Shown: one piece after another, positions 163 through 25,612 of the stretch
Layout: every line of letters begins with the position of its first letter
Position numbering within the stretch: the stretch's first letter is position 1
Source: Desulfarculus sp.
GTDB taxonomy: Bacteria > Desulfobacterota > Desulfarculia > Desulfarculales > Desulfarculaceae
Length of the DNA: 40,752 nucleotides
Assembly: GCA_016218705.1 (NCBI GenBank)
Contig: JACRDC010000009.1
Span: 1-40,752, forward strand
Direction: 5' to 3'
Translations under genes and position numbers: made by a program
The notes under the pieces: generated by a model
Databases searched by the model: none
Told to the model about the DNA's origin: nothing
Seen by the model: the letters and a program-made list of their open reading frames with translations, nothing else

Positions 163-900
163 TCAGGGCAGCAATTCATATTGGCCACGGCAGGCCGGGC
201 AGGCCATCCGGTCCCAGTTCCGGTGCTCCACCCTTTTTATGCGCAGCGGCCACAGGTTCAGGCTGAGCATCCCCTCCAAAATCTGGTCCTGGGCGCCCAG
301 CATGATTTTCAGGGCCTCGGCGGCCTGCAGGCTGGCCAGGCAGGCCGCGGCCGGGCCGATGATGCCCAGTTGGGCCGAGCCCGCCGGCGGCTCGCGCCGG
401 CTGGGGAACCAGCAGCGCAGGCAGGGTCCCTGGCCGGGGCGCACCACCACTAGCTGCCCTTTAGCCTGCACCACCCCGGCGTGCACCAGGGGGATGCCCA
501 GCTTGAGGCAGGCCTCGTTGAGCAGGTGCCGGCCACTGGCGTTGTCCAGGCCGTCCAGGACCACCTGGCAGCCGGCCACCAGCTCCAGGGCGTTGCCCGG
601 CCCCAGGGCCACCTGGTGGGCCTCGATGGCTATCTGGCTGTTGAGCGAGCGCAAGTAGGACTCGGCGGCCTGGGCCTTGGAGCGCCCGGCGGCCACGTCC
701 TGTTCGTTGTACAGTACTTGGCGGTGCAGGTTGTCCAGGCTGGGATGGTCCGGGTCCGCCAGGCGCAAGGACCCCACGCCGGCCCGGGCCAAGAGCATGG
801 CCGCGGTGCCGCCCAGGCCGCCCAGGCCCACCACCAGGGCCCGGCCCTGGCGCAGGCGCTCCTGGCCGGACCGGCCCCAGGGGCCGAAGCGCTCCTGCAT
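163..900 (-). CDS. ThiF/MoeB/HesA-family E1-like adenylyltransferase
   Basis: Predicted ATP-dependent activating enzyme of 245 residues that adenylates the C-terminal glycine of a ubiquitin-like sulfur carrier (family knowledge). Near the N-terminus is the Rossmann nucleotide loop VVGLGGLGG (about residues 23-31), followed by LADPD and NLHRQVLY, which match the Asp and Arg positions that bind ATP in MoeB/ThiF. Two CxxC pairs, PCLRC and CPAC near the C-terminus, fit the structural zinc site. The open frame extends upstream to 975, but that would overlap the sulfur-carrier gene. The ATG at 900 is preceded by GGAGGGG at a spacing of nine and is preferred; ATG 918 has no ribosome site. It is the last gene of the Mo-hydroxylase operon, so Moco (MoaD/MoeB) or enzyme-specific sulfur transfer is the likely job. 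Which pathway it serves cannot be read from sequence alone. Confidence 0.88.
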   Translation of the reverse strand: MQERFGPWGRSGQERLRQGRALVVGLGGLGGTAAMLLARAGVGSLRLADPDHPSLDNLHRQVLYNEQDVAAGRSKAQAAESYLRSLNSQIAIEAHQVALGPGNALELVAGCQVVLDGLDNASGRHLLNEACLKLGIPLVHAGVVQAKGQLVVVRPGQGPCLRCWFPSRREPPAGSAQLGIIGPAAACLASLQAAEALKIMLGAQDQILEGMLSLNLWPLRIKRVEHRNWDRMACPACRGQYELLP

Positions 901-926
901 CTGGTAACGCCCCTCCATGGGGGGAC

Positions 927-1148
927 TCAGCCGCCAAAGGCGGGGTGGATCAGCTCCACCCGGTCGCCATCGCATAGAATAACGGCCTCGTAGTCGCGGG
1001 GGTGCACGAAGCGGCCATTGACCTCCACCACCAGGTCCTTGTGCTGGGCCTGCTGGCGAAGGATGAGCGCGGTCAGGTTAACGCCAGCCGGCAGGCGCTC
1101 GGCAAAGCCGTCCACCATCACGATTATCTCCGGCTCGCCGTGGTCCAA
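927..1148 (-). CDS. ThiS/MoaD-like ubiquitin-fold sulfur carrier protein
   Basis: Short protein of about 73 residues ending in the Gly-Gly that E1-like enzymes adenylate and thiocarboxylate. It starts with a beta strand (EIIVMVDG), has the central LVVEVNGRFV strand typical of ThiS, and finishes DRVELIHPAFGG. The start is uncertain. The TTG at 1148 keeps the first beta strand complete and follows a G-rich stretch. GTG 1121 or ATG 1118 would cut into that strand. The ATG-initiated frame from 1262 overlaps the upstream gene and its extra N-terminus looks like shadow sequence. It sits 26 bases before the E1-like gene, so the pair almost certainly works together. It could feed molybdopterin synthase (MoaD role) or thiamin synthesis (ThiS role). 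Its position behind a Mo enzyme favours the former. Confidence 0.82.
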   Translation of the reverse strand: MDHGEPEIIVMVDGFAERLPAGVNLTALILRQQAQHKDLVVEVNGRFVHPRDYEAVILCDGDRVELIHPAFGG

Positions 1149-1167
1149 CCCTTGCCCCCGCCGCCCT

Positions 1168-1371
1168 TTAGTCCAGGCGGATGATCTTGACGTGCTTGCC
1201 GCACCACTCGTAGGGCAGGTACACCCGTCCGCTCTTGCCGCTGCGGGTGACGGTCTTGTCAATCATCTCCAGGCCGCTCAGCTCGAACTTGGCATTGGGC
1301 GGCCGGGAGGCGGCGGCCCCCCGCGCCGCCGCCACCGGCCAGTCATGTCCGCTCTGGGCCTTGCCCGCCAT
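1168..1371 (-). CDS. DUF2080-like small protein
   Basis: A 67-residue basic protein. Its C-terminal half (KTVTRSGKSGRVYLPYEWCG and then KHVKIIRLD) resembles the short DUF2080 family, which databases label 'putative transposon-encoded protein' and whose core resembles an AbrB/swapped-hairpin strand pattern. The N-terminal ~30 residues are low-complexity and Ala-rich. It is 12 bases downstream of the Mo-subunit gene and 19 bases upstream of the sulfur-carrier start, so it is co-transcribed. No transposase or terminal repeat is nearby, so the 'transposon' label probably does not describe its role here. Function is unknown; a small assembly or regulatory factor for the Mo enzyme is speculation. 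Family assignment is from memory of the motif. Confidence 0.72.
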   Translation of the reverse strand: MAGKAQSGHDWPVAAARGAAASRPPNAKFELSGLEMIDKTVTRSGKSGRVYLPYEWCGKHVKIIRLD

Positions 1372-1383
1372 GCCGGTCCCCGC

Positions 1384-3738
1384 CTAGCCCTGCTTGGCCT
1401 GGGCCAGGGCCTTGAGCACCCGCTCTGGCGTCAGCGGCAGCTCGTCAATGGCCACGCCGATGGCGTCGTGCACGGCGTTCAAGATGGCGGGGATGGTGGG
1501 CATGATGGCGCCCTCGCCCACCTCCTTGGCCCCGAAGGGTCCGTTGGGCTCGCCGGTCTCCACCACGATGCACTTCATCTCCGGCATGTCCAGCACCGTG
1601 GGTATATGATACTCCCCCAGGGAGGGGTTGAGCACCCGGCCGTCCTTGTCGAACTTCACCTCCTCGAACATGGTTTCGCCCAGGCCCATGGAGACCGAGC
1701 CTTCCATCTGGGCCTCCACCGAGGTCAGGTTGATGGCCTGGCCGCAGTCGTGGGCGTCGGTTATGCGCTCCACCTTGATCTGACCGGTCTCCAGGTCCAC
1801 GCTCACCTCGGCCACCTGGGCCGAGCAGCCATAGGCCGGCGAGGTGCCCACCGCCGCGCCCTTGTGCAGACCGCCCAGGACGGGGGGCTTGTACTTGCCG
1901 GTGCCGACGATGGTGCCGTGCTTCAAGAAGGCCACCCGCGCGGCCTCGGTGAAGGTCAATTGTTCGCCGTCGGGGTGGTCGGTCCAGCCCCGGTGCTCCT
2001 TTATGTACTTGGTGCGCAGGGCGCTGAAGTCCACCGGCTCGCCGCTGATCTGCACCAGGCCCTTCTTGAGGTCCAGACGCTGGCGCTCGATGCCCAACTC
2101 CTGGGCCAGGGCCGTCAGCACCGTCTCCTTGACCGCCAGGCCGGCTTCCTTGGTGGCGTGGCCGGTCATCAGCGTGGTGCGCGAGGAGTAGGCCCCCAGG
2201 TCCACGCCGTAGTCGGTGTCACCGCTGACCAGGCGCACGGCCTCCAGGGGGATGCCGATGGCCTCGGCGGCGATCATGGCCATGGTGGTGTCGGAGCCCT
2301 GGCCGATCTCGGCCGCGCCGGTCTTGACCAGCACGGTGCCGCCGTCCTCCTGCACCTTGATGGTCACGGTGCAGTGGAAGGTGTCGGAGCGGTAGATAGG
2401 GTAGCCGGCGCCCGAGACGAAGAAGCCCGAGGCCATGCCGATGCCCCGGCCAGGGGGGAGCTTGCCGCGCTTTTCCTGCCAGTCCGAGCCGGTCTGCACG
2501 GCCTGGATGCACTCCTTCATGCCCAGGGAGGACATGGACATGTGGTTGCAGGTGACGTCGCCGTTCTCCATGATGTTCTTGAGCCGCATCTCGATGGGGT
2601 CCAAGTCGAGCTGCTTGGCCACGATGTCCAACTGCTGCTCGAAGCAGGCCCGCGCCGCCACGCAGCCGTGGCCGCGCTGGGCCCCGCAGGCGGGCTTGTT
2701 GGTGTAGACCCGGTAGCCGTCGTAGCTCATGTGCTTCATGCGGTAGGGACCGCCCAGCAGGGAGCCGGCGTAGTAGACCGTGGCGATGCCAAAGGAGCTG
2801 TAGGCCCCGCCCTCCAGGTGGCACTGGTGAGCCAGGGCCACGATGGTGCCGTCCTTCTTGAAGCCGGTCTTCATGGTGTGGAAGAATTGGTGCCGCGCCC
2901 GGCTGTGCAAAAAGACCTGGGCGCGGGTGTAGCCCATGCGCACCGGCTTGCCCGTGCGCATGGCCAGGAAGGAGGCGCACAGGTCCAGGGGGTTGGCCTC
3001 GGCCTTGGGGCCGAAGCCGCCGCCCACGTAGGGCTTGACCACCCGCACCTTGCCGATGGGCACCCCGGTGACCATGGACAGGGTGCGCTGCACGTAGTGG
3101 GGCACCTGGGTAGAGCTGTAGAGGGTGAGTTGCCCCGTGTGGTCATAGACGGCGATGGAGTGCTGGGGCTCGATGAAGCCGCCGTCCTGGCGCTTGTTGA
3201 CGAACTTGTGCTCGTGGATCAGGTCGCATTGGGCGAAGCCCGCCGCCAGGTCGCCGAACTCCTGGTGCACCTCGGCGCAAAGGTTGCCGGGATACTCGTC
3301 GTGCAACTGGGGCGCGCCCGGGGCCAGGGCCTCATCCACTGTGAGCACGTGGGGCAGGGGCTCGTAGTCCACCTTGATAAGCTCGATGGCCTCTAGGGCG
3401 GTCTCAAGGTCCACGGCGGCCACGGCGGCCACCTCGTCGCCCACGTAGCGCACGCGGTCAATGGCGAACACCGTCTCGTCGTAGCGGGCCGGCGAGACCC
3501 CGTAGCGGGTGGCCGGCACGTCCTTGTGGGTTATCACCGCCTTGACCCCGGGCAGCTTGAGCGCCCGCGAGGTGTCTATGTTCAGCACCCGGGCGTGGGG
3601 CAGGGGGCTTTGCAGCAGGGCGCCGTGCAACTCGCCCACAAAGCGCAGGTCCTCGGCGTAGATGGCCTTGCCGGTGGCCTTGTCCACGGCGTCCACGCGG
3701 CGGGCGCGGCCGCCGATAACGTCGTACTTCCCGCCCAT
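1384..3738 (-). CDS. Molybdenum-binding catalytic subunit, xanthine dehydrogenase family (hydroxybenzoyl-CoA reductase-like)
   Basis: Large subunit (784 residues) of a three-subunit Mo/FeS/FAD hydroxylase. Visible features include the N-terminal a/b hammerhead region (DKATGKAIYAEDL), the cofactor-binding loop VGGGFGPKAE (~238-247), the active-site loop CGAQRGHG (351-358), the GAAEIGQGSDT molybdopterin loop, and the C-terminal KEVGEGA with the expected catalytic Glu742. It lacks the AYxCSFR loop of form I CO dehydrogenase, so it is not CoxL. The 2Fe-2S subunit gene ends three bases upstream. Next to a CoA ligase and TRAP importer, a CoA-thioester substrate like that of 4-hydroxybenzoyl-CoA reductase is the best inference. 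Other N-heterocycle or aromatic substrates remain possible. Confidence 0.9.
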   Translation of the reverse strand: MGGKYDVIGGRARRVDAVDKATGKAIYAEDLRFVGELHGALLQSPLPHARVLNIDTSRALKLPGVKAVITHKDVPATRYGVSPARYDETVFAIDRVRYVGDEVAAVAAVDLETALEAIELIKVDYEPLPHVLTVDEALAPGAPQLHDEYPGNLCAEVHQEFGDLAAGFAQCDLIHEHKFVNKRQDGGFIEPQHSIAVYDHTGQLTLYSSTQVPHYVQRTLSMVTGVPIGKVRVVKPYVGGGFGPKAEANPLDLCASFLAMRTGKPVRMGYTRAQVFLHSRARHQFFHTMKTGFKKDGTIVALAHQCHLEGGAYSSFGIATVYYAGSLLGGPYRMKHMSYDGYRVYTNKPACGAQRGHGCVAARACFEQQLDIVAKQLDLDPIEMRLKNIMENGDVTCNHMSMSSLGMKECIQAVQTGSDWQEKRGKLPPGRGIGMASGFFVSGAGYPIYRSDTFHCTVTIKVQEDGGTVLVKTGAAEIGQGSDTTMAMIAAEAIGIPLEAVRLVSGDTDYGVDLGAYSSRTTLMTGHATKEAGLAVKETVLTALAQELGIERQRLDLKKGLVQISGEPVDFSALRTKYIKEHRGWTDHPDGEQLTFTEAARVAFLKHGTIVGTGKYKPPVLGGLHKGAAVGTSPAYGCSAQVAEVSVDLETGQIKVERITDAHDCGQAINLTSVEAQMEGSVSMGLGETMFEEVKFDKDGRVLNPSLGEYHIPTVLDMPEMKCIVVETGEPNGPFGAKEVGEGAIMPTIPAILNAVHDAIGVAIDELPLTPERVLKALAQAKQG

Positions 3739-3741
3739 GGC

Positions 3742-4218
3742 TTAAGCCCTCCCCATCTTCTGCGCCGCGTCGGCCACGGCCTCCACGATCTTTTGGTAGC
3801 CCGTGCAACGGCACAGATTGCCGCTCAAGGCCTGGCGGATATCGCCGTTGCTGGGGTCGGGGTTCTTTTCCAGCAGCGACTTGGCCGAGAGGATCATGCC
3901 CGGCGAGCAGAAGCCGCACTGGATGGCCCCATGCTCCACCATGGCCTCCTGGATGGGGTGCAGGCGGTTGCCGTCGGCCACGCCCTCGATGGTGCGCACC
4001 CGCCGGCCAGTGACCTGCGCGGCCAGCACCAGGCAGGAGTTGACCGGCTCATCGTCCAGGAGCACGGTGCAGGAGCCGCAGTCCCCCACCTGGCAGCCCT
4101 GCTTGGTGCCGGTCAGTCCCAGGTCCTCCCTGAGCACCTGGGCCAGGGTGCGGTTGGGGGCCACCAGCAATTCGTGTTCGGTGTCGTTCACCACCAAGGT
4201 GATCGCAAGCTTTTTCAT
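3742..4218 (-). CDS. 2x[2Fe-2S] subunit of molybdenum hydroxylase
   Basis: Electron-transfer subunit of 158 residues, the normal size for CoxS/HcrC-type proteins. The N-terminal plant-ferredoxin domain has GCQVGDCGSC followed by a later SC, giving four Cys ligands. The C-terminal helical domain has QCGFC and CRCTGY for the second cluster. Start ATG has GGAGG upstream. It lies between the FAD subunit gene (12-base gap) and the Mo subunit gene (3-base gap), so the order FAD-FeS-Mo is in one transcript. It passes electrons between Moco and FAD. No TAT signal is visible, in line with a cytoplasmic enzyme. Confidence 0.93.
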   Translation of the reverse strand: MKKLAITLVVNDTEHELLVAPNRTLAQVLREDLGLTGTKQGCQVGDCGSCTVLLDDEPVNSCLVLAAQVTGRRVRTIEGVADGNRLHPIQEAMVEHGAIQCGFCSPGMILSAKSLLEKNPDPSNGDIRQALSGNLCRCTGYQKIVEAVADAAQKMGRA

Positions 4219-4230
4219 GGCTGTTGCCTC

Positions 4231-5109
4231 CTAATCCTGGCGGGCGGCCTGCCAGGCCTGCTGCAAGGCCCGGCGGGTGAGCACTAGCACTTCCTGGCGG
4301 CGGAAGTCGGCCGACCCCCGGTGGTCGTCAATGGGCCGGGCGTCGGCGGCGGCGGCCTGGGCGGCCTGGCGGATCAACTCCTCGCTGATGACCTGGCCGG
4401 TGAGCGCCGCCTCGGCTCCGGGAGAGAGTATCGGCGTGGGCGCCACGGCGCCCAGGGCCACCCGGGCGGTCTTGACCGTTTGGCCGTCGTCCTCCAGGGC
4501 CACAAAGGCCGCCACGTTGACCAGGGCGATCTCCAGGGCCTGGCGCAGGCCCAGCTTCTGGTAGCCGCTGCCCACCCCCGGTCCACCGGCGGGCAGCTTG
4601 ACCCCGCACAGCAGCTCGCCGGGGGTTCGCACCGTGCGCCCCGGCCCCAGGAAGAACTCGCTCAGGGGCACCTCGCGGGCGCCGTGCGCGCTTTGCAGCA
4701 GGGCCGTGGCCCCCAGGGCCAACAGGGGCACGCACATGTCCGCCGCCGGCCGGGCGTTGCACACGTTGCCGCCCACGGTGGCCCGGTTGCGCACCTGGGG
4801 CGAGCCCAGCACCCCGGCGCCCAGGGCCAGGGCCGTGGCCCGCGCCCGCACCCCGGGCTCGCCGGCTAGGGCCGAAGCGGTTAGCATGGGTCCCAGGAGG
4901 AGCATGCCCTCCTGCTCCTGTATCTGGCCAAAACCCTCCAGGGCCTCCAGGCCCACCACATGGGCGGGTTTCATCAGCTTGTGCTTCATGCCCACCAACA
5001 GGTCGGTGCCGCCGGCCAGCACCGCGGCCTGGCCCTGGTGCTGGGCCAGGATGGCCAGGGCCTCGTCCAGGCGGGCTGGGCGGTGATATTCAAAGCGCGG
5101 TAACAGCAT
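4231..5109 (-). CDS. FAD-binding subunit of molybdenum hydroxylase (CoxM/HcrB-like)
   Basis: 292-residue medium subunit. The two flavin motifs of the family are present: LAGGTDLLVGMK near residue 31 and TVGGNVCNARPAADM near residue 113. The C-terminal CO_deh_flav_C-type region follows (ARVALGAVAPTP). In true 4-hydroxybenzoyl-CoA reductase the beta subunit carries an additional ~40-residue loop with four cysteines for a [4Fe-4S] cluster. No such Cys-rich loop is visible here, so this enzyme is not a standard HcrB. AAGGAG precedes the ATG. It is the first of the three enzyme subunits, about 94 bases after a small ORF. Confidence 0.92.
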   Translation of the reverse strand: MLLPRFEYHRPARLDEALAILAQHQGQAAVLAGGTDLLVGMKHKLMKPAHVVGLEALEGFGQIQEQEGMLLLGPMLTASALAGEPGVRARATALALGAGVLGSPQVRNRATVGGNVCNARPAADMCVPLLALGATALLQSAHGAREVPLSEFFLGPGRTVRTPGELLCGVKLPAGGPGVGSGYQKLGLRQALEIALVNVAAFVALEDDGQTVKTARVALGAVAPTPILSPGAEAALTGQVISEELIRQAAQAAAADARPIDDHRGSADFRRQEVLVLTRRALQQAWQAARQD

Positions 5110-5203
5110 GGTACGTCTCCTTGCGGCCGCTCCCCAGTGTATTGACTGTCCCTGGCGGCGGGCATGCCGCCTATCCAGGCCGCTGGGCCGGGAAGCGGCG
5201 CGG

Positions 5204-5404
5204 TTAGCCTTGGTCGTCCGGGCGCGGCCCGGCCGGCAGGGTCAGCAGGCCCAGGTCCATTTCCATCATCTTGAGGCTGGCCAAGGCCCGCCGGCAGTTG
5301 CATTGCAGGGCCGGGAAATCCTCGGCCTGCTCCAGCAGGGCCTGCCCGTGCTCCTTGAGCAGACTCAGGCGCACCATGAGCCCCTCGATCTTGTAGCTGT
5401 CCAC
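5204..5404 (-). CDS. Small conserved-looking hypothetical protein, 66 residues
   Basis: This gene is hidden in a longer open frame. Its start is set by a GTG at 5404 with GGAGG six bases upstream, right after the CoA-ligase stop codon (20-base gap). The protein is alpha-helical in character (MVRLSLLKEHGQALLEQAED) with a CNCRRALASLKMMEMD segment and a Pro-rich, acidic C-terminus. Nothing resembles a known enzyme domain. Its position between the CoA ligase and the Mo hydroxylase, plus a good ribosome site, argues for a real gene. Function is not recognised; a small accessory or metal-binding chaperone of the ligase or hydroxylase is only a guess. Confidence 0.6.
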   Translation of the reverse strand: MDSYKIEGLMVRLSLLKEHGQALLEQAEDFPALQCNCRRALASLKMMEMDLGLLTLPAGPRPDDQG

Positions 5405-5424
5405 GTGTCGCCTCCGCTGCCGGC

Positions 5425-6759
5425 TCAGTGTTGCTGGCGCAGGTCCTTGAAGCGCCGGGCCTTGCCCTCGTAGCGGGTCAGGGAGCCGGGCCGGTGGACC
5501 TCGATGATATAGCCCAGGTTGGTCTCCAGGCGCAGCTCGTCCTTGAGCCGGCCCAGGATGTCGTCGCCCAGGCAGTCCTGGCCGGCGCAGGGCTCCACCT
5601 TGAGGGTGATGCGGTCCTGGCCGGCGATCCTCTCCACCACCACCTCGTACTCGTCGGACAGGGCGGCGCAGCCCCGCACCACCGCCTCGATGGCCGAGGG
5701 CGAGAGCAACACACCCTTGACCTTGGTGATGTCGTCGGCGCGCCCCTGCACCCCGCCTCTTATCAGGCGATAGGTGCGGCCGCAGGGGCAGGGGGCCGAG
5801 TCCCACTCGATGATGTCCTTGGAGTCGAAGCGCAGGCAGGGCTGGGCCAGGCGGTCGAAGGCGGTGATTATCATCTTGCCCGGCCGCCCCGGGGTGGTGA
5901 TGGTCTGGCCGGTCACCAGGTCCTCGATCTCCACCAGGAACAGCCCCTCGTTTACGTGCAGGCCCCCGGGCTGCTCGGCGCACTCGTAGCTCCAGGCGCC
6001 GATCTCGGTGGCGCCGGCGTGGTCAAAGACCTTGGCGCCCCAGGCCTTCTCCAGGCGCTGCTTGGTGCCGGGGATGGAGGCCCCGGGCTCGCCGGCGCAG
6101 GTGATCTTCTCGATGGTCAGCTCCGCCGGGTCCAGGCCCAGCCTGCTCCGGGCCACGTCGGCCATGTTGAGCAGGTAGGTGGGGGTACCCATCATGGCCG
6201 TGGCCTTGAGCTCCTGTATCTTGAGGATGCGGGCCGTGGTGTCCAGCACGCCGCCGGGAACCACCTCGCAGCCGATCTTCTCGGCGGCGTAGTGGCCGGC
6301 CCAGAAGGCCACGAAGATGTTGTAGCCAAAGGGGAGGAAGACCCGGTCGCGGGGGCGGTAGCCCTGGGACCACAGGATGTAGCACCAGGCCTCGGACCAC
6401 CATTCCCAGTCGGGCCAGGAGTCGGCCTGGTAGATGGGCTTGCCGGTGGTGCCCGAGGTCTGGCGGAACTCCACCACCTCCTCCAGGGGCAGGCACAACA
6501 ACTCGCCGTAGGGGAAGGGCTCGCCGGCCTGGGCCGTCTTGAGCATGGCCTTGTCCACCTTGGGCACCCGGGCCACGTCCTCCATGGTCTTGATGTCTCC
6601 CGGCTCCAGGCCCGCCTGGCGGTAAAGCCGGCGGTAGAAGGGAGAGCGCTCGTACCCCCAGGCCACGATGCCCTGGAACTTGCGCAGTTGCACCTGGCGC
6701 AGTTTCTCGAGGTCCATGGTTTCCAGGTAGGGGTTCCAGTATTTGCTGCCCGTGGCCAC
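5425..6759 (-). CDS. Phenylacetate-CoA ligase family (PaaK-like) AMP-forming acyl-CoA ligase
   Basis: 444-residue adenylate-forming enzyme that makes a CoA thioester from an (aryl) carboxylic acid, ATP and CoA. It shows the phosphate loop TSGTTGKP (101-108), the GATEIGAW adenine/Mg region (~250), LRFDSKD (A8-like hinge area) and the CPCGRTYRL zinc-type motif found in PaaK proteins. The N-terminus (SPFYRRLYRQAGL, then the PKVDKAML region) is also PaaK-like. The GTG start has AAAGGAG five bases upstream. It is co-directional with a TRAP importer upstream and a Mo hydroxylase downstream, so it probably activates the imported acid before the ring reaction. The exact acid is unknown; benzoate, hydroxybenzoate and phenylacetate types are all possible. 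Confidence 0.9.
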   Translation of the reverse strand: MATGSKYWNPYLETMDLEKLRQVQLRKFQGIVAWGYERSPFYRRLYRQAGLEPGDIKTMEDVARVPKVDKAMLKTAQAGEPFPYGELLCLPLEEVVEFRQTSGTTGKPIYQADSWPDWEWWSEAWCYILWSQGYRPRDRVFLPFGYNIFVAFWAGHYAAEKIGCEVVPGGVLDTTARILKIQELKATAMMGTPTYLLNMADVARSRLGLDPAELTIEKITCAGEPGASIPGTKQRLEKAWGAKVFDHAGATEIGAWSYECAEQPGGLHVNEGLFLVEIEDLVTGQTITTPGRPGKMIITAFDRLAQPCLRFDSKDIIEWDSAPCPCGRTYRLIRGGVQGRADDITKVKGVLLSPSAIEAVVRGCAALSDEYEVVVERIAGQDRITLKVEPCAGQDCLGDDILGRLKDELRLETNLGYIIEVHRPGSLTRYEGKARRFKDLRQQH

Positions 6760-6786
6760 GCCTACTCCTTTCCCGTATCAAGAGGG

Positions 6787-6802
6787 GGCCGCCGCAGCGG
6801 CC
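6787..6802. other. Intercistronic hairpin
   Basis: Perfect 6-bp arms GGCCGC/GCGGCC with a four-base loop, in the gap between the cytidylate-kinase-like gene and the CoA-ligase gene. No T-run follows, so it is more likely an mRNA processing or stability element than a terminator. Confidence 0.4.
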
Positions 6803-6830
6803 ATCCCCGCCGTCCCGTCATGGCGGCGCC

Positions 6831-7655
6831 CTAGCCGCCGTAGCCGAAGACGGAGTATCGCAGTTGATTGACGACTTCTGTCACCCCGGGCTGCCGGGCG
6901 GCCATCTGCTCCACCGCCTGGCGGTCCTTGCGGCTGGGCACGCTGCCGGTCAGGATGAGCCTGCCGCCGGCCTCGCCTTGGGCCGAGACATGGCGCGCTC
7001 CCTGCACCTCCAGGCGCAGTTTGGCCTCCACGCGCTTGCCCAGGGCCAGGGCCAACAGGGCCGGCGGGGCCTCCTCCAGGGGGAACAGGCGCTTGATCTG
7101 TTCCACCGCCAGCCTGATGGCCTCCACTGCCGCCTGTTCGTCCAGGCGCTCGGTGTTGAGGACCAGGTCGTAGAGGCGCCAGTGCTCGGGGTCCTTGGCG
7201 TAGATCTGGCGCACCAGGGCCTCGCGGCGGTGGTCGTGCTCGCGGATGAACTCCAGGGCGCCGTCGGGGTCCATGCCGTGGGCGCCGCACAGGTGCAGCA
7301 CCCGGCGCCGGGTGGGGGCCACCACCCGCACCCGGAGCACCTGGGGCACGTCGCGCAGCACGATCTGGGCGCCTCGACCCATGATGATGACCCTGCGCTG
7401 GGCGGCCAACTCGAAGACCAGGGCCTCGTAGAGGCTTAAGTAGGCGGGCCGGCTGAAGAACAGGCGCTCGAAGAAGCCCGGCCCCTCCTCGCGGAAGAAA
7501 TGCTCCAGCCGCGAGGCCAGCTCGGGGTCGTGGCGCGAGGCGGCCTCCTGGAAATCGGCCGGCTCCAGCAGCCGGTAGCCGTCCTGGGCGGCCAGGGCCC
7601 GGGCGATCTCGTCTCCCAGGCTGCCTGCCAGGCGCGAAATGGTGATGATGGCCAT
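6831..7655 (-). CDS. Cytidylate-kinase-like protein with C-terminal BON-like domain
   Basis: 274 residues. The N-terminal ~195 residues resemble the cytidylate kinase-like family (AAA/P-loop fold): MAIITISRLAGSLGDEIARALA replaces a normal GxxGxGKS loop and lacks the Walker Lys, which is usual for this family. Further motifs are RRVIIMGRGAQIVL, RVRVVAPTRRRV and YDLVLNTERL. The C-terminal ~70 residues read like a BON domain (RLILTGSVPSRKDRQAVEQM followed by a PGVTEVVNQL motif). Such a kinase-BON fusion is uncommon to my knowledge. It starts at an ATG with AAGGGGG five bases upstream and lies between dctM and the CoA ligase. The substrate is unknown, and a regulatory or sensing role in this operon is more plausible than CMP salvage. 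Confidence 0.75.
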   Translation of the reverse strand: MAIITISRLAGSLGDEIARALAAQDGYRLLEPADFQEAASRHDPELASRLEHFFREEGPGFFERLFFSRPAYLSLYEALVFELAAQRRVIIMGRGAQIVLRDVPQVLRVRVVAPTRRRVLHLCGAHGMDPDGALEFIREHDHRREALVRQIYAKDPEHWRLYDLVLNTERLDEQAAVEAIRLAVEQIKRLFPLEEAPPALLALALGKRVEAKLRLEVQGARHVSAQGEAGGRLILTGSVPSRKDRQAVEQMAARQPGVTEVVNQLRYSVFGYGG

Positions 7656-7683
7656 GCTTACCCCCTTGCGGTTGGTTGTGGCC

Positions 7684-8988
7684 TCACAGGCCCATGAAGC
7701 GCCGCGGCAGCCAGAGAGAAATCTCGGGGAACAGGAGCAGGATCAACAGGCACAGGGCCATGCCCACCAGGTAGGGATAAATGCCCTTGTAGATGGTGCC
7801 GATGGGCGTGCCCGTCACTCCCGCCACCACGAAGGCGTTGATGGCCACCGGCGGCAGGATGATGCCGATCATGGTCACCACGCTGATGATGATGCCAAAC
7901 CATATGGGGTCGTAGCCCATCTTGAGCACCACCGGCAGGAAGATGGGGGTGGCCAGGATCAAGAAGGCCAGGTCCTCGATGAAGGAGCCGCCGATGAGGT
8001 ACACCATGACGATGATGAGCATGATGACCAGGCCTGGGGCGTTGAGGCTCTCCAGCCAGGCGGCCACGATGAAGGGCGTGCGGGTAATGAGGAAGAAGTG
8101 CCCCAGGATGGTGGCCCCGGCGATGAGCGAGAGCACCATGCAGGCGATGCGCAGGGTGTCCTTCACGGCGCGCACGAATTTTTTCAGGTTCATCTCGCGC
8201 TTGCTCAGGGTGAGCAACAGCACCGCGAAGCTGCCCACGCTGCCGGCCTCGGCCGGGGTGAAGAAGCCCTGCATGAGCCCGCCCACCACCAGCAGGAAGA
8301 TGACCGCCACCGAAATCACCGGCAGCAGGGACTTGAAGCGCTCGCCCCAGGTGGAGCGCTCGCCCTTGGGCCCCAAGGCGGGGTTGAGGCGGCACCAGAT
8401 GAACAGGGTGACCGCGAAGGAGAAGGCCAGGAGCAGGCCCGGGATGATGCCGGCCAAAAAGAGCTTGCCGATACTGGTCTCGGTGAGCACGCCGTAGATA
8501 ATGAGCACCACGCTGGGCGGTATGAGGATGCCCAGGGTGCCCACCGTGGCCACGGTGCCGCAGGACAGCCGCCGGTCGTACTTGTAGCGGTCCATCTCGG
8601 GTATGGCGATGGTGGCGAAGGTGGCGGCGGTGGCCGGCGAGGAACCGCAGATGGCCTTGAAGGCCGTGGCCGCCGCCACGGTGCCAATGGCCAGGCCGCC
8701 CGGGATGTGCCCCACGAACTTAAAGGCGGCGTTGTATAGGTTGCGCGCCACCCCGCCGCTGGCCCCCAGTTGGCCCATGAGCACGAACAGGGGTATGACC
8801 GTGAGGCTGTAGGAGGTGAAGACGCTGAAGATGTCCTTGGCCACCAGGTTGAAGGCCGCCTCCACGTTGACGATGGCCGCGAAGCCGATGAACCCGGCCA
8901 GGGCCATGGCGAAGCCGATCTCCAGACCCATGAGGAACAGGACGAACAACAGCCCGATGACCAGGGCGCCGATTTCTCCGTATCCCAT
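7684..8988 (-). CDS. dctM: TRAP transporter large permease (DctM family)
   Basis: 434-residue inner-membrane protein with about 12 hydrophobic segments, the ion-coupled translocation subunit of a tripartite ATP-independent periplasmic transporter. Family hallmarks include the GLEIGFAMALAGFIG start, the PLFVLMGQL stretch, GTVATVGTLGILIPPS and a second IILPPVAINAFVVAG repeat. The open frame extends upstream, but the ATG at 8988 lies two bases after the dctQ stop and has GGAAGGAGG upstream, so it is chosen. It forms a complex with DctQ and receives substrate from DctP. Confidence 0.95.
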   Translation of the reverse strand: MGYGEIGALVIGLLFVLFLMGLEIGFAMALAGFIGFAAIVNVEAAFNLVAKDIFSVFTSYSLTVIPLFVLMGQLGASGGVARNLYNAAFKFVGHIPGGLAIGTVAAATAFKAICGSSPATAATFATIAIPEMDRYKYDRRLSCGTVATVGTLGILIPPSVVLIIYGVLTETSIGKLFLAGIIPGLLLAFSFAVTLFIWCRLNPALGPKGERSTWGERFKSLLPVISVAVIFLLVVGGLMQGFFTPAEAGSVGSFAVLLLTLSKREMNLKKFVRAVKDTLRIACMVLSLIAGATILGHFFLITRTPFIVAAWLESLNAPGLVIMLIIVMVYLIGGSFIEDLAFLILATPIFLPVVLKMGYDPIWFGIIISVVTMIGIILPPVAINAFVVAGVTGTPIGTIYKGIYPYLVGMALCLLILLLFPEISLWLPRRFMGL

Positions 8989-8990
8989 GC

Positions 8991-9464
8991 TCAGGCTGCC
9001 TCCTTCCGGGCCAAGTCGGTAATCAGCACCAGGCACTGCACCAGGCAGCAGAAGGCGATGCCATAGGCCAGGGGGTACTGGGGTAGATGCAGGGTCAGCG
9101 AGACCTCGCTCTTGTCCAACAGGTCGTTGCCCATGAGAAAGAGGTTCCAGGCGATGATGGCGAACAGGCCCACTCCCAGCAGGCGGGTGGCCACGTACAG
9201 GGCGCGCCCGCCCAGGCCCTTCAGGCGTTCGGTGAGGAAATCCATGAGCACGTGCCCGCGGTCCAAGGAGGTCTGGGGAATGGCGAAACCGATGGTCAGC
9301 GCCCCCAGAAAACCCACAAGCTCATAGGTGCCCAGGATGGGCCGCTTGAACAGGCGCAGCACCACGTCGGCCACGGTGAGGAACATCATGGAGGCCAGGG
9401 AGGCCCCAGCGACCCAGTACAAATAGCGGCAGAGGTTTTCCACCAGTCTGATGAACCCGCTCAT
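8991..9464 (-). CDS. dctQ: TRAP transporter small permease (DctQ family)
   Basis: 157-residue membrane protein with four predicted transmembrane helices, the standard layout of the DctQ subunit (RYLYWVAGASLASMMFLTVA, YELVGFLGALTIGFAIPQTS, ATRLLGVGLFAIIAWNLFLM and AYGIAFCCLVQCLVLITDLA). The VADVVLRLFKRPILGTYELV signature of the family is present. It overlaps no neighbour: dctM starts two bases after its stop. dctP is 117 bases upstream with a strong hairpin between them. Confidence 0.93.
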   Translation of the reverse strand: MSGFIRLVENLCRYLYWVAGASLASMMFLTVADVVLRLFKRPILGTYELVGFLGALTIGFAIPQTSLDRGHVLMDFLTERLKGLGGRALYVATRLLGVGLFAIIAWNLFLMGNDLLDKSEVSLTLHLPQYPLAYGIAFCCLVQCLVLITDLARKEAA

Positions 9465-9545
9465 GCGATTGCCCCGCCCAGGGAGGGTGTTCTGTTGGCC
9501 AGGCCGCTGATTGCCCTAGGCCTGGCGGCCATGGAGGCTGGACAA

Positions 9546-9572
9546 GGGGCCGCCCCAGGGGCGGGCGGCCCC
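9546..9572 (-). other. GC hairpin between dctP and dctQ (attenuator/mRNA stabiliser)
   Basis: Perfect 10-bp arms GGGGCCGCCC/GGGCGGCCCC with a 7-base loop, 10 bases downstream of the dctP stop. No T-run follows. This is the classic place for a 3' stabilising stem that gives the binding protein more mRNA than its permeases. The same layout occurs after urtA. Confidence 0.65.
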
Positions 9573-9581
9573 TCCTTGGGC

Positions 9582-10592
9582 CTAGGGGTTGGACTTGAGC
9601 CACTCCTGGCAGAACTTCAGGGCCTCCTCGCCGGGCAGGCCCTTGGCCTTGGTGGAGGCCACGTACTCGGCCAGCACCGGCTGCACCTGCTTGGCCCAGC
9701 GGGCGTCCTCCTCCTTGGACAGGGCCACCACCTGGTTGCCCTTGGCCAGGGTGAACTCCACGCCGATCTTGTCGAAGTCGTCCCAGGCCTTGCCGGTCTT
9801 GTCAATCCACTCCTGGTTGATCTGGGTGATGGTCTCCTGGATGTCCTTGGGCAGGGAGTCCCACTTCTTCTTGTTCATGGCCACGAAGAAGGCCAGGGAG
9901 TAGGAGGAGCCGAAGTTCTGCACCGAGCACTTGACGACCTCGGCGAACTTCCAGCCCTTGAGGGTCTCGATGGGCGAGACCACGCCGTCCACCACGCCCT
10001 TTTGCAGGGCGTCGTAGGTCTCGGTCTGGGGCATGGCCACCGGCGTGGCCCCCAGGGCCGACACCACCCTGGCGCTGGTGCCGGTGCAGCGGATCTTGAG
10101 CCCCTTCAGGTCCTCAAGCTTGGCCACCGGAGTCTTGGTGTGCAGGATGCCCGGCCCATGGCCGTGCAGATACATCACCTTGACATCGTCCAGCTCCTTG
10201 GGGGCCATTTTCTGGTAATAGGCGTTGGCCAACCGGGTCACCTGTAGGCCGCTGGTGTAGCCCAGGGGCAGGTCCACGACCTCGGTGAGGGGGAAGCGGC
10301 CCTTTACGTAGCTCAAGACCGACATGCCGATGTCGGAGATGCCCTTGACCACCCCGTCGTAGCACTGGTCGGCCGGGGTGAGCGTGGCGCCGGGGAAGAC
10401 GTCAATCTTCACCGCGCCATTGGTGCGTTTCTCCACCTCCTTGGCCCACTCCATGGCCAAAATGCTATGCCCATGGGAGGCTGGGAAGAACACCGAATAG
10501 GTAAGCTTGACCGTGGGTGCCGCCCAGGCCATTGACCAGGTCATCGCCACCGCCAATAGGACCACCAAAGCCGTCAACGATTTTTTTGCCAT
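9582..10592 (-). CDS. dctP: TRAP transporter periplasmic solute-binding protein (DctP family)
   Basis: 336 residues with a Sec signal peptide (Lys-rich start, hydrophobic core ALVVLLAVAMTWSMAWA, likely cleavage after AWA). The mature part is a DctP-type binding protein: ISDIGMSVLSYVKGRFPLTE, then LEDLKGLKIRCTGTSARVV, whose Arg in the KIR motif usually binds the substrate carboxylate, then YDALQKGVVDGVVSPIETLK. The frame opens at 10667, but the ATG at 10592 has AAAGGGG eight bases upstream and begins the signal peptide. First gene of the catabolic operon, 76 bases after a -24/-12 promoter. Ligand is likely an organic, perhaps aromatic, acid. Confidence 0.94.
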   Translation of the reverse strand: MAKKSLTALVVLLAVAMTWSMAWAAPTVKLTYSVFFPASHGHSILAMEWAKEVEKRTNGAVKIDVFPGATLTPADQCYDGVVKGISDIGMSVLSYVKGRFPLTEVVDLPLGYTSGLQVTRLANAYYQKMAPKELDDVKVMYLHGHGPGILHTKTPVAKLEDLKGLKIRCTGTSARVVSALGATPVAMPQTETYDALQKGVVDGVVSPIETLKGWKFAEVVKCSVQNFGSSYSLAFFVAMNKKKWDSLPKDIQETITQINQEWIDKTGKAWDDFDKIGVEFTLAKGNQVVALSKEEDARWAKQVQPVLAEYVASTKAKGLPGEEALKFCQEWLKSNP

Positions 10593-10667
10593 GCGCCCAT
10601 CCCCTTTGCCATGCCCGTTTGCACGGGATTGAAGTGCTGAACGCCATCCCAAACACGTATATCCCAC

Positions 10668-10683
10668 CGCAAGTTTCGTGCCT
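10668..10683 (-). promoter_or_regulatory. Sigma-54 (-24/-12) promoter of the dctP operon
   Basis: The minus strand reads AGGCACGAAACTTGCG, close to the consensus TGGCACG-N4-TTGC with the invariant GG and GC exactly ten bases apart. The expected start site is near 10657, giving a leader of about 65 bases before dctP. The adjacent upstream genes encode a sigma-54-type activator and its kinase, so the fit is functional as well as sequence-based. A near-palindrome, GGAACTATAGTCC at 10726-10738, lies ~45 bases upstream and may be an activator site. Confidence 0.85.
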
Positions 10684-10795
10684 GGGAGTAGGGGCCTCAG
10701 CCCCGAGAGTAGCTTACTGATTTAAGGAACTATAGTCCAGGGGGCCGGAGGCCGGGGCATGGGAGGGGTGGAAAGCCTGGAGCCACCGTGGCTGA

Positions 10796-12169
10796 TTACT
10801 TGGCAGGCTGGGCGGCGGCCTCGGGACTGGGGGGGCGGGTCAGGCCGTGGCGGGCCAGGCGGGAGCGCAGGGTGGGGCGGCTGACCCCCAGGGCCTGGGC
10901 GGCGGCGGTGACGTTCCAGCGGGTGGTCTCCAGGACCTGTTGGAGGTGCCGCTTCTCGGCCTCGGCCAGGGAGAGTATCTCCAGCGAGGGGGCGCGGGCC
11001 GTCTGCCCCAGGGACAGGGCGGCCTTGACGGCGTCGGCCAGCAGCACAGGCCCCCGGGAGTCCAGGGCGGCCTTGGTGAGGATGTTGAGAAGTTCGCGCA
11101 CGTTGCCCGGCCAGCGGCTGGCCGTCAGCAGATCCATGGCCGTCTTTTCCACCTGGACCACCCGGGTGTGCATCTCCCGGTTGATGCGCCCCAGGAAAAA
11201 GGGCACCAAGTCGGCGATGTCCTCCCGGCGCTCCCGCAAGGGGGGCACCTTGATGGCCGTGACCTGCAAGCGGAAGAGCAGGTCGGGGCGGAACTGGCCC
11301 CGGCTGGCCATCTCCTCCAGGGGGCGGTTGGTGGCGGCGATGATGCGGGCCTGGGAGCGCAGGGTCTTGACCCCGCCCACCCGGGTGAACTCCCGGCGCT
11401 CCAAAAAGCGCAGGAGCTTGGCCTGCAAATGCAGGGGCAGCTCGCCCACCTCGTCGAAGAAGATGGTCCCCTTCTCGGCCAGCTCCAGGCGCCCCCGCTT
11501 GGCCAGGGCGGCGCCGGTGAAGGACCCCTTCTCGTGGCCGAATAGCTCGCTCTCCATCAGGTTGTCCACCAGGGTGGAGCAGTCTATGGTGAGGAAGGGC
11601 TGCTGGCCAAAGGGCGAGTTGTCGTGGACGGCCCGGGCGATCACCTCCTTGCCGGTGCCGGTCTCCCCCTGGATGAGCACCGTGGCGAGGTTTTGGCTCA
11701 ACAGGCCGATGGCCTTGAATATCTGGCGCATGGCCCGGGAGTTGCCCACCAGGCGGTTGGGCTGGCCGTCCCCCGGGGGTGGCGGCGCCAGGGGGGCGGC
11801 CGTCAGCTCGGGCACGTGGGCCGCCCGCCGCACGCACTGCTCCAGCTCGTCAATGTCCAGGGGCTTGTGCAGGTAATCGAAGGCCCCCAGGCGCATGGCC
11901 TGGATGGTGGTCTCCATGTCGTGGAAGGCGGTGATGACGATGACCCGGCACTGGGGCAGCATGGACTTCAAAGGCCCCAGCATGTCCAGGCCGCTGGCGT
12001 CGGGCAGGCGCACGTCCAGGACCACCACCGCGGGCAGGAAGCTGCGCGCCAGGGCCAGGCCCTCGGCCACCGTGGAGGCGGTGCGCACCTCGTGGCCCCG
12101 TTCGCTCAAGAACAGGGCCAGGGACTTCTGGAGGTTGACCTCGTCGTCTATGATTACCAGGCGGCTCAC
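10796..12169 (-). CDS. Sigma-54-dependent response regulator (NtrC family)
   Basis: 457 residues. The receiver domain (1-~120) has the acidic pair IIDDE, phospho-acceptor Asp52 (VVLDVRLPD), Thr80 and Lys102. The AAA+ domain (~140-375) has Walker A GETGTGKE (168-175), the sigma-54 contact loop in the variant form GSFTGA (215-220; usually GAFTGA) and Walker B TIFFDE (235-240). A Fis-type helix-turn-helix is at the C-terminus (WNVTAAAQALGVSRPTLRSR). The GTG start overlaps the kinase stop as GTGA, so the two are translationally coupled. It very likely activates the -24/-12 promoter of the dctP operon just downstream. The Ala-to-Ser change in the loop is tolerated in some family members. Confidence 0.93.
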   Translation of the reverse strand: MSRLVIIDDEVNLQKSLALFLSERGHEVRTASTVAEGLALARSFLPAVVVLDVRLPDASGLDMLGPLKSMLPQCRVIVITAFHDMETTIQAMRLGAFDYLHKPLDIDELEQCVRRAAHVPELTAAPLAPPPPGDGQPNRLVGNSRAMRQIFKAIGLLSQNLATVLIQGETGTGKEVIARAVHDNSPFGQQPFLTIDCSTLVDNLMESELFGHEKGSFTGAALAKRGRLELAEKGTIFFDEVGELPLHLQAKLLRFLERREFTRVGGVKTLRSQARIIAATNRPLEEMASRGQFRPDLLFRLQVTAIKVPPLRERREDIADLVPFFLGRINREMHTRVVQVEKTAMDLLTASRWPGNVRELLNILTKAALDSRGPVLLADAVKAALSLGQTARAPSLEILSLAEAEKRHLQQVLETTRWNVTAAAQALGVSRPTLRSRLARHGLTRPPSPEAAAQPAK

Positions 12170-13755
12170 GGATGCCTCGGCATTATCAGGCTGAACTTGG
12201 AGCCCTTGCCCGGGGTGCTCTCCACGGCCACCTCGCCGCCATGGGCCTCGGCGATACGCTTGACATTGGTCAGGCCCAGGCCGGTGCCGTGGGCCTTCCT
12301 GGTGAAGAAGGGCGTAAATACCTGGGCCAGGTCCTGGGCGGACATGCCGGCCCCGTTGTCGCGCACCGACAGTTCCCAGGCCGGCCCGGCGGGCGAGGTG
12401 GTCAGGCGGGTGGCCACGGTGATGTAGCCGCCGTCGGCCACGGCGTCCATGGCGTTGAAGAGCAGGTTGACCAGGGCCTGCTCCAGCTTGCCCTGGTCCA
12501 TGGACTGGGGCCCCAGACTGGGCTCCAGCAGGCGGCGCAGCCTGATGCCCCGCTCGGCCAGCTTGGGGCGCAAGAGGTCCAGGCAGCCCTGCACCAGGGC
12601 GTTGGGGTCCTGGCGGGCCAGGCTAAGAGACAAGGGCTTGGCCACGTCCAGCAACTGGCGCAGGATGCCCTCCAGGCGGCTGACCTCGGTGACGGCCATG
12701 TTCAGGCGCTGGCGGTCCACCTGGGGCAGATAGTCCTGGCGGGAGAGGACCTGCAAGTTCACCTTGATGATGGACAGGGGGTTGCGCAGCTCGTGGGACA
12801 GCGAGGCCGTGAGGTGCCCCACGTAGGCCAGGCGCTCGCTCTCGCGCATCTTGCGCTCCATCTCCACCCGCTGGGTGAAGTCGCGGCAGATGCCGATAAT
12901 CACCGGCCCCTGGCCCAGGTCCACCACCCTGGCCCTGATCTCGGTCACCCCCCGCTGCCCCTGCTTGCCCAGGCGCTGGTACTCCAGGGCCGGGGTGGCC
13001 GGCCCTCCGGCCAGGGTCTGGCGAAAGACCAGCAGCACCTTGTCGCGGTCCTCGGGGGCCACGAAATCCAAAAAGGGCTGGCTGACGGTCTGGTGCCAGG
13101 AGGCCTGGTGCATCTCGCAGAAGGCGCGGTTGGCCAGGGCCACGCGCATGTCCTGCACCGCCACGTAGCCGTCGTTTATCTCCTCCACCAGGGTCTTGTG
13201 CTGGCGCTCGCTGGCCGCCAGCTCCCGGCTGCGCAAGAGCACCTCTTTTTTGAGGTGCTCGGCGTGGCGGCGAATGGCCGCCTCGTGGCGCTGCTGAAAC
13301 TGGTCGGAGAAGCAGTAAATCTGGTGGGAGACCACGGCGTTGACCGCCTCCAGGGCGGCCAGGGGGTCAAAGGACTGGGCCTGGGCCAGGACCTTGGGCA
13401 GCAGAATGACCCGGTAGAGGTCAAAGGCCTTCTGCACCTCCGAAAGCGAGAAGCCGGCCTCCAGGCGCAGGCGGGTGATGAACTCCACGAAGCTGTCCAG
13501 GGGCGCCGTGCGGCCCTGCTCCATGGCCATCCGGTTGGCCTGGTAGGACTGGGAGATGGTCGTGTTCAGCTCTTCGGTGCTGCGGCCGCGGTAATGGGGG
13601 CTTAGGCGCGAGACCCGGTCCACCCACTCGGGGACGATGTCGTCGGCCATGGCCTGAAGCCAGCGGATAAAGGCCGGCGGGGCCTGGGGCAGGCTGGCGG
13701 GAGCGCCGGCGGCGGGCGCCTCCGGGTGCCCGTGGCTGATGCCTGGGGAGTTCAT
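12166..13755 (-). CDS. Cytoplasmic PAS sensor histidine kinase
   Basis: 529 residues without transmembrane helices. An N-terminal helical region (~30-155) resembles the RsbRD/'RsbT co-antagonist N-terminal' globin-like sensor fold. A PAS domain follows (~185-295), then HisKA with His321 in SHELRNPLS, and a HATPase domain with N box NLLFNAMDAV, DNGAGM and GTGLGL. It is the partner of the response regulator encoded immediately after it with a 4-base overlap. Being soluble, it should sense an internal signal such as the imported acid, its CoA ester, or redox/oxygen state through the globin-like or PAS domain. The ribosome site (TTAAGGT) is very close to the ATG. Confidence 0.9.
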   Translation of the reverse strand: MNSPGISHGHPEAPAAGAPASLPQAPPAFIRWLQAMADDIVPEWVDRVSRLSPHYRGRSTEELNTTISQSYQANRMAMEQGRTAPLDSFVEFITRLRLEAGFSLSEVQKAFDLYRVILLPKVLAQAQSFDPLAALEAVNAVVSHQIYCFSDQFQQRHEAAIRRHAEHLKKEVLLRSRELAASERQHKTLVEEINDGYVAVQDMRVALANRAFCEMHQASWHQTVSQPFLDFVAPEDRDKVLLVFRQTLAGGPATPALEYQRLGKQGQRGVTEIRARVVDLGQGPVIIGICRDFTQRVEMERKMRESERLAYVGHLTASLSHELRNPLSIIKVNLQVLSRQDYLPQVDRQRLNMAVTEVSRLEGILRQLLDVAKPLSLSLARQDPNALVQGCLDLLRPKLAERGIRLRRLLEPSLGPQSMDQGKLEQALVNLLFNAMDAVADGGYITVATRLTTSPAGPAWELSVRDNGAGMSAQDLAQVFTPFFTRKAHGTGLGLTNVKRIAEAHGGEVAVESTPGKGSKFSLIMPRHP

Positions 13756-20107: not shown

Positions 20108-20128
20108 CCAACTGTAGCCAACCCTTTC

Positions 20129-20155
20129 GGCGCCCCCGCCTGGAGCGGGGGCGCC
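20129..20155 (+). other. GC hairpin between urtA and urtB
   Basis: Perfect 11-bp arms GGCGCCCCCGC/GCGGGGGCGCC with a five-base loop, 21 bases after the urtA stop. No T-run follows, so partial termination or 3'-end protection of the urtA message is more likely than full termination. Confidence 0.65.
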
Positions 20156-20167
20156 CTAGGAAAGACC

Positions 20168-21808: not shown

Positions 21809-21811
21809 GCC

Positions 21812-22923
21812 ATGCTGGCGCGCCTGATGGCAATGCACTCCCGGCGGGCCTGGCTGGCTTTTGCCCTGGCGGCGCTGGTGGCCCTGGTGCTGGTGCCGGC
21901 GCTCAACCTGGCCGTGCCAGCCGGCTGGCCGCTGCGCCTGCCCGACTACCTGGTGCCGCTGTTGGGCAAGTTTTTGTGCTACGCCCTGGTGGCCTTGGCC
22001 ATGGACATGGTCTGGGGCTTCACCGGCATCCTGAGCCTGGGGCATGGCGTGTTTTTCGCCCTGGGCGGCTACGCCATGGGCATGCACCTGATGCGGGTCA
22101 TGTCCGGCGAGGGGCACTACCGCAGCCAGTTGCCCGACTTCATGGTCTTTCTCAACTGGAAGGAGCTGCCCTGGTTCTGGCAGGGCTTCGACCAGTTCTG
22201 GCTGGCGGCCCTGGTGATCCTCTTGCTGCCGGCCTGCGCGGCCCTGGTCTTCGGCTTCTTCGCCTTCCGCTCGCGCATCAAGGGCGTGTACTTCTCCATA
22301 ATCACCCAGGCCACCACCTTTGCCCTGATGCTGCTCTTCTTCCGCAACGAGACCGGCCTGGGCGGCAACAACGGGCTCACCGATTTCAAGCGCCTGCTGG
22401 GCTTTTCGCTGTCCACGCCCGCCACCAAGCTGGGGTTGTATTTGACCACGGCCCTGGTGCTGCTCCTGGCCTACCTGGCCTGCCGCTACATCGTCACCAG
22501 CAAGCTGGGGCGCCTGCTGTGCGCCATCCGCGACGGCGAGAGCCGGCTGCTCTTCTTGGGCTACGACGTGCTGCGCTACAAGCTCTTCGTATGGACCTTC
22601 TCGGCCTTTTTGTGTGGCATCGCCGGGGCGCTGTACGTGCCCCAGGTGGGAATAATCAACCCCAGCGAGCTGCACCCGGCGGGCTCCATCGAGATGGCCA
22701 TATGGGTGGCCGTGGGCGGGCGGGGCAGCCTGGTGGGCGGGCTGTTGGGGGCCTTTTTGGTCAACGGCGCCAAGAGCTGGTTCACGGTGGCCTGGCCGGA
22801 GTTGTGGCTCTTCTTCCTGGCCGCCCTGTTCATCGGCACCACCATGTTCCTGCCCCGGGGCCTGGCCGGACTCAAGGACCTGCTGCCCTGGGCCAGGCGC
22901 GGCGATTCCACGGAGGTGAGGCG

Positions 22924-22927: not shown

Positions 22928-23724
<797 letters not shown>

Positions 23725-23726
23725 CC

Positions 23727-24410: not shown

Positions 24411-24436
24411 GCATGGGCATGCGTCAGGGAAACGCC

Positions 24437-25276: not shown

Positions 25277-25309
25277 GCGTCAACCACCCTGTGCTGAAAG
25301 GAGCCGGGC

Positions 25310-25612
<303 letters not shown>

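Follow-up and report, generated by a model that had tools for sequence, protein, structure and literature searches.

The reverse-strand gene cluster at the beginning of the window (the whole 40,752-nucleotide stretch that was analysed, which is one entire contig and has a Desulfarculus MAG as its closest public relative) very probably encodes the import of 4-hydroxybenzoate, its activation to the CoA thioester and its reductive dehydroxylation to benzoyl-CoA by a 4-hydroxybenzoyl-CoA reductase (HBCR) whose FAD subunit has no [4Fe-4S] loop. The sequence of import, thioesterification and dehydroxylation had been suggested in the first-pass annotation by likeness to 4-hydroxybenzoate degradation, and is well supported by orthology and genomic context. 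An apparently uncharacterised molybdenum (Mo) hydroxylase module can thus be linked to a step already known from the anaerobic breakdown of aromatic compounds. The pathway itself is ordinary; the loopless form of HBCR is widespread but poorly recognised.

The genes form an operon-like run in the order histidine kinase, NtrC-type regulator, dctP, dctQ, dctM, cytidylate-kinase-like/BON gene, PaaK-like ligase, a 66-residue gene, the FAD, FeS and Mo subunits, ThiS and ThiF. From dctP onward, neighbouring genes either overlap or are separated by gaps of under 125 bases. The dctPQM, ligase and FAD–FeS–Mo genes are all present where the first-pass annotation had placed them; it had missed the cytidylate-kinase-like/BON gene, the 66-residue gene, ThiF and the upstream kinase/regulator pair (10796–13755). 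Locus L013 of G003, a closely related MAG of the same genus, has a Mo subunit 95% identical to that of the window and an identical gene order, so the arrangement is not a matter of chance. In L013 the ligase and FAD genes (9638–10929 and 11247–11997) are each split into two frames by frameshifts that may be assembly errors.

The most upstream gene encodes a PAS-domain sensor histidine kinase (12166–13755, reverse strand; Pfam HisKA, HATPase_c and PAS) that is the probable sensor of the operon. It overlaps by 4 bases the gene for an NtrC-type sigma-54 response regulator (10796–12169, reverse strand; Response_reg, Sigma54_activat and HTH_8), and it adjoins the operon in L013 too. A possible sigma-54 (−24/−12) promoter, AGGCACGAAACTTGC, precedes dctP at 10669–10683 on the reverse strand and has 10 of the 11 consensus bases. 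This was the one candidate for a pattern that would be expected to match 1.4 times by chance in the window, and at so near to chance level it is suggestive only. A similar match precedes dctP in L013 and is not clear in more distant TRAP loci.

The transporter genes, again on the reverse strand, comprise dctP for the TRAP solute-binding protein (9582–10592 from an ATG, with an in-frame GTG that would lengthen the gene to 10667; Pfam DctP, 175.8 bits), dctQ for the small membrane subunit (8991–9464; Pfam DctQ) and dctM for the large permease (7684–9036; TIGR00786, above cut-off). The closest solved structures to DctP are the TRAP binding proteins 4n6d, 4pgn and 4nap. The cytidylate-kinase-like protein with a BON domain (6831–7655, reverse strand; Pfam Cytidylate_kin2 and BON) is also a neighbour of the reductase in L013, L008, L019 and L154. 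Enzymes of the Mo hydroxylase family often carry a cytosine-dinucleotide Mo cofactor, and it is conceivable that this protein is linked to the cofactor through the supply of CTP.

At the downstream end lies a ThiS/MoaD-like sulfur carrier (927–1262, reverse strand; TIGR01683, 39.9 bits, above cut-off) whose C-terminus has the Gly-Gly ending FGG. Its gene overlaps by 49 bases that of a ThiF/MoeB-like E1 adenylyltransferase (163–975, reverse strand; Pfam ThiF, 216 bits) with two CxxC pairs. The pair is kept in L013, L020, L059, L061 and L095, and would probably serve in sulfuration of the Mo cofactor. The rest of the contig carries a branched-chain-type/urea ABC transporter (UrtE) with the urease genes ureD, ureC and ureF (18800–28822, forward strand), and nifB, nifN, nifE, nifK and nifD with a NifA-like regulator (29534–40459, reverse strand); the NifD protein has an insert of ∼50 residues relative to its model.

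The catalytic Mo subunit (1384–3738, reverse strand) is the predicted HBCR subunit on three grounds: its profile scores, its resemblance to PDB 1rm6 and its position in the tree. Its best model was TIGR03194 (HBCR alpha), at 869.5 bits against a cut-off of 994.55, followed by the XdhA model NF043082, at 587.6 bits against a cut-off of 780. On TIGR03194, Thauera HcrA scored 1389.1 bits, and the homologues L097 and L098 scored 1168.9 and 1181.1 bits, both above the cut-off. HcrA in 1rm6 was also the best PDB match. A profile search of the window genome found no HBCR alpha above the cut-off, so the window locus is the best HBCR candidate of its genome. In the alignment, the HcrA columns E726 and Tyr326, which we take to be catalytic-site residues with E726 as the catalytic Glu, and the CGAxRGHG motif with its Arg are all conserved; the motif reads CGAQRGHG in the window, as it does in L097 and L098.

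Wider relatives of the Mo subunit were gathered by whole-genome searches, a contig-level search having given only four loci. Identity to the window subunit ranges from 63 to 95% among orthologues across the phylum and then falls sharply to ∼51%, with the next homologues at 41–46%. In a maximum-likelihood tree, whose rows do not include the characterised XDH, CoxL and NicB proteins, the window Mo clade has a support of 100/100, and its sister (100/99) is the group that exceeds the HBCR-alpha cut-off (L097 and L098 being the members scored). These two groups and Thauera HcrA together form a clade of 22 rows (100/98), within which the exact place of HcrA is uncertain because it is a long branch. 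The first-pass annotation had named a position inside the HcrA clade as evidence against its own proposal of a novel enzyme, and this is largely the position observed. What counts against the HBCR reading is that the Mo, FAD and FeS subunits all score below the NCBIfam HBCR equivalog cut-offs. Since the scores are below the curated cut-offs and the loop is missing, we have filed the module as HBCR-like, in a loopless sister lineage, rather than as a certified HcrABC.

The FeS subunit (3742–4218, reverse strand; Fer2 and Fer2_2), predicted to carry two [2Fe-2S] clusters, scored 182.4 bits on TIGR03193 (cut-off 257.8) and has all eight canonical cluster-ligand cysteines. The FAD subunit (4231–5109, reverse strand) gave 136.6 bits on TIGR03195 against a cut-off of 404.55, and its highest scores were with xanthine-dehydrogenase models. 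Residues 98–150 of the FAD subunit align without the ∼38-residue insert of Thauera HcrB (1rm6_B) and of the loop-bearing homologues, confirming the earlier observation that the Cys-rich [4Fe-4S] loop is absent. The subunit has just three cysteines (117, 126 and 168), none conserved within the clade, so no replacement cluster is evident. The insert is also absent from every full FAD subunit read from the window clade and from those of the above-cut-off sister group; it is present in L105, L107, L108, L110, L111, L112 and L114. As judged from these alignments, absence of the cluster is a genuine feature of the variant, and a widespread one.

From the missing loop, it had been argued that the redox chain, and probably the substrate or direction, would differ from those of HBCR. 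The first part of this argument holds, in that the chain leading into the FAD must, on the aligned sequences, differ from that of the Thauera enzyme. The second part fails because Mo subunits above the HBCR-alpha cut-off, those of L097 and L098, also pair with loopless FAD subunits. The Mo subunits with loop-bearing partners that were scored reached 758–853 bits, which puts them at a greater distance from HcrA than the loopless group above the cut-off. On the Mo tree, the loop is gained or lost at least four times; together with the loopless partners of above-cut-off Mo subunits, this means that the loop is no marker of substrate. We also rejected the loop as a marker of lineage, on the same two loci. 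It should therefore not serve to recognise HBCRs in strict anaerobes. In the literature searched, we found no statement on the absence of the loop from HBCRs of strict anaerobes, but such papers may exist.

The assignment of the substrate draws on a cluster in Desulfatiglans anilini (H567DRAFT_02049–02059), the proteins of which are more abundant in phenol-grown cells; the evidence for its role is thus induction in the proteome (PMC6114531). The PaaK-like protein of this cluster was proposed to be a 4-hydroxybenzoate-CoA ligase, and the presence in it of small and medium subunits of a ‘CO dehydrogenase’ puzzled the authors (PMC6114531). Locus L071 of genome G198 has the gene order of 02059–02049, and the computed masses of its ligase (50.501 kDa), PpcB (52.24 kDa) and Pps-beta (39.928 kDa) agree with the published values in every digit. 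Pps-alpha gave no exact match, probably through a difference in start codon. From the gene order and the three exact masses, we infer that L071 is the D. anilini phenol cluster. Position and similarity suggest that the supposed ‘CO dehydrogenase’ proteins belong to the reductase, the small subunit being its FeS protein and the medium subunit its loopless FAD protein, which would probably explain the published misannotation. The window Mo subunit shows more than 60% full-length orthology to the D. anilini-type clade, within which the FAD subunit is loopless and the support is 100/100.

The ligase gives a second connection. The window enzyme (5425–6759, reverse strand), a PaaK-like AMP-forming ligase that we predict to be a 4-hydroxybenzoate-CoA ligase, has PaaK-family matches that are below all equivalog cut-offs (on the PaaK model TIGR02155, 211.7 bits against 646.3), and its best PDB match is 2-hydroxyisobutyryl-CoA synthetase, with PaaK second. 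It is 68.5% identical to the L071 ligase and falls in a clade (99/99) with the ligases of phenol and TRAP clusters. Directly after it is the gene for the conserved 66-residue protein (5204–5404, reverse strand), which has no Pfam or NCBIfam match. Homologues are found directly 3′ of the orthologous ligase in L013, L059, L061, L062, L068, L071, L086, L095 and L154, and a counterpart in L097 was assigned by position, at 14% identity; none follows the ligases of L151 and L153. Members of this family have 55–68 residues and a FPAL..N..R..ASL motif, and always follow this PaaK-like ligase, whether the cluster is of the phenol or of the TRAP kind.

Two neighbourhoods recur around the Mo clade of the window. 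In the phenol-cluster type (type A), the FAD–FeS–Mo genes are found with PpcB, an AMP ligase, UPF0261, UbiX, two Pps-like genes and sometimes a PaaK-like ligase; the PpcB of L016, for example, scored 595.3 bits against the phenylphosphate carboxylase beta cut-off of 468.95. In the window-like type (type B), they are found with dctPQM and PaaK, and often with ThiS and ThiF. The context switches at least five times on the Mo tree, a count that includes a few more distant TRAP-linked homologues. In L154 both contexts are joined in a single run, PpcB-ligase-UPF0261-PAC_bac-UbiX-dctPQM-PaaK-CytK-FAD-FeS-Mo-ThiS-ThiF. The UPF0261/PRK02399 protein is nearly constant in phenol clusters, and PAC_bac (PF21758, proteasome-assembly-chaperone-like) adjoins UbiX in many of them (L015, L016, L063, L064, L074, L075 and L154).

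The complete genome G273 has a copy of each type, L060 (type A) and L061 (type B). The two Mo subunits show 100% identity across 783 residues, whereas FAD and FeS are 72% and 86% identical; at the DNA level, the copies hardly differ from around the FeS gene up to where the Mo gene ends. The simplest explanation of these sequences would be that the gene for the catalytic subunit was recently duplicated or converted between the clusters, and the shared stretch is a likely gene conversion tract. The identity of the Mo subunits argues for the same chemistry in both contexts; given the differing FAD and FeS subunits, it is not proof of the same substrate.

These data bear on whether the module might instead act, by the same reductive dehydroxylation, on another hydroxylated benzoate, for instance 3-hydroxybenzoate or a 4-hydroxybenzoate with further substituents. 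Ligase specificity is not fixed by sequence alone, in G273 the two contexts have diverged FAD and FeS subunits, and several TRAP-type genomes, including that of the window, lack PpcB, so that their tie to 4-hydroxybenzoate runs through orthologues. Nevertheless, the phenol route yields 4-hydroxybenzoate, the phenol cluster of G273 has the identical Mo subunit, the L154 run unites both contexts, and the orthologous ligase belongs to the D. anilini phenol cluster. We therefore regard a different hydroxybenzoate as unlikely for the window. Some members of the clade may act on other substrates, since L015 has UbiX in a genome without PpcB above the cut-off, and several others (e.g. L065, L066, L073 and L081) show neither of the two neighbourhoods within the stretches read. 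Two further dctPQM-linked Mo hydroxylase modules, one in L153 (8054–15793 and on) with a PaaK-like ligase of 28% identity and one in L110 that has ThiF and an FAD subunit with the loop, probably serve other aromatic or heteroaromatic acids.

4-Aminobenzoate was considered as a substrate, as the levels of a PaaK-type ligase and of two TRAP binding proteins rise in D. anilini on aniline, and the organism also has ‘HBCR’ homologues that are specific to aniline (PMC7500099). However, the Mo fragment of L162, which lies at the edge of a second Pps/UbiD cluster in G198 and was assigned to the aniline cluster by gene content, is 99% identical to L151 and only ∼33% identical to the window clade. L151 has its own dctPQM-PaaK-Mo-FeS-FAD set, the ligase of which is 36% identical to that of the window. 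Moreover, the reported aniline-specific reductases were not seen during growth on phenol; the window orthologue, by contrast, belongs to the phenol-induced cluster. With the aniline-type Mo subunit in a different lineage, we rejected 4-aminobenzoate as the main reading and consider it quite improbable for the window. L151 (4850–11776) and L162 (2–922) are a candidate module for the import and reductive deamination of 4-aminobenzoate.

The least probable reading is the novel aryl- or heteroaryl-CoA hydroxylase of the first-pass annotation, running oxidatively like 2-furoyl-CoA or nicotinate dehydrogenase: many members of the XDH family with loopless FAD subunits are hydroxylases, and the window FAD subunit scores best with xanthine-dehydrogenase models, but the Mo subunit clusters with HcrA and the HBCR group above the cut-off rather than with more distant XDH homologues, that group has loopless FAD subunits too, and the context is that of phenol degradation, so we set this reading aside as highly improbable on context and on a tree that does not include a furoyl-CoA dehydrogenase.

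In the preferred reading, of 4-hydroxybenzoate degradation, the TRAP transporter would import 4-hydroxybenzoate, the PaaK-like ligase would convert it to 4-hydroxybenzoyl-CoA at the expense of ATP, and the Mo/FeS/FAD enzyme would reductively remove the para-hydroxyl group. The resulting benzoyl-CoA would enter ring reduction and ring cleavage, for which the host genome has marker genes: BamA (512.8 bits; cut-off 464.45) and Had (458.6 bits; cut-off 338.65), adjoined by a Dch-like gene that is below its cut-off. It is thus plausible that benzoyl-CoA is processed in the host. PpcB above the cut-off is absent from the window genome and from its TRAP-type relatives G003, G312, G349 and G438, which for the window genome fits uptake of 4-hydroxybenzoate and not its formation from phenol; in G273, G061 and G322, PpcB and a TRAP-type copy are both present.

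Electrons would pass from the FAD through the two [2Fe-2S] clusters to the Mo cofactor and on to the substrate. In the Thauera enzyme, the [4Fe-4S] loop that is missing here adjoins the FAD, so in the loopless form the donor would have to make more direct contact with the FAD. It is possible, although on balance we rather doubt it, that the loopless clade is a distinct form of HBCR, common in Desulfobacterota, in which the FAD is reduced directly by some donor outside the ferredoxin route of Thauera (e.g. NAD(P)H or a dedicated partner), with the 66-residue protein and ThiS/ThiF as its specific parts. Were the donor of this kind, aromatic dehydroxylation would come at a different energy price.

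Among known systems, Thauera aromatica HcrABC (1rm6/1sb3) shares with the window the set of subunits and a Mo subunit that is 40% identical over its full length; the window differs in its loopless FAD subunit, in scoring below all three equivalog cut-offs and in having Q in its motif in place of the M of HcrA, as in the above-cut-off loopless group. That group (L097–L104) is alike in its sister position and loopless FAD, and in L097 a PaaK-like ligase 58% identical to that of the window and Pps genes adjoin the reductase. Its Mo subunits are, however, only 45–49% identical to that of the window, and no TRAP or ThiS/ThiF genes are adjacent in the stretches read. The D. anilini phenol cluster has orthologues of four of the window proteins (Mo 69%, FeS 65%, FAD 50% and PaaK-like ligase 68.5% identical), but its reductase follows phenylphosphate synthase/carboxylase genes, in contrast to the TRAP, kinase-like and ThiS/ThiF genes of the window. 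In the p-cresol/4-hydroxybenzoate cluster of Geobacter metallireducens (Gmet_2134–2140), HBCR genes lie near pcmV and pcmW, which are annotated as possibly involved in biosynthesis of the HBCR molybdenum cofactor (PMC2700814). These two genes are a possible parallel to ThiS/ThiF, likened by annotation and not by sequence, and a sigma-54 response regulator is listed among the p-hydroxybenzoate proteins of that organism. Finally, a TRAP system for phenylacetate has been described in Desulfococcus multivorans, so the import of an aromatic acid by a TRAP transporter has a precedent in sulfate reducers.
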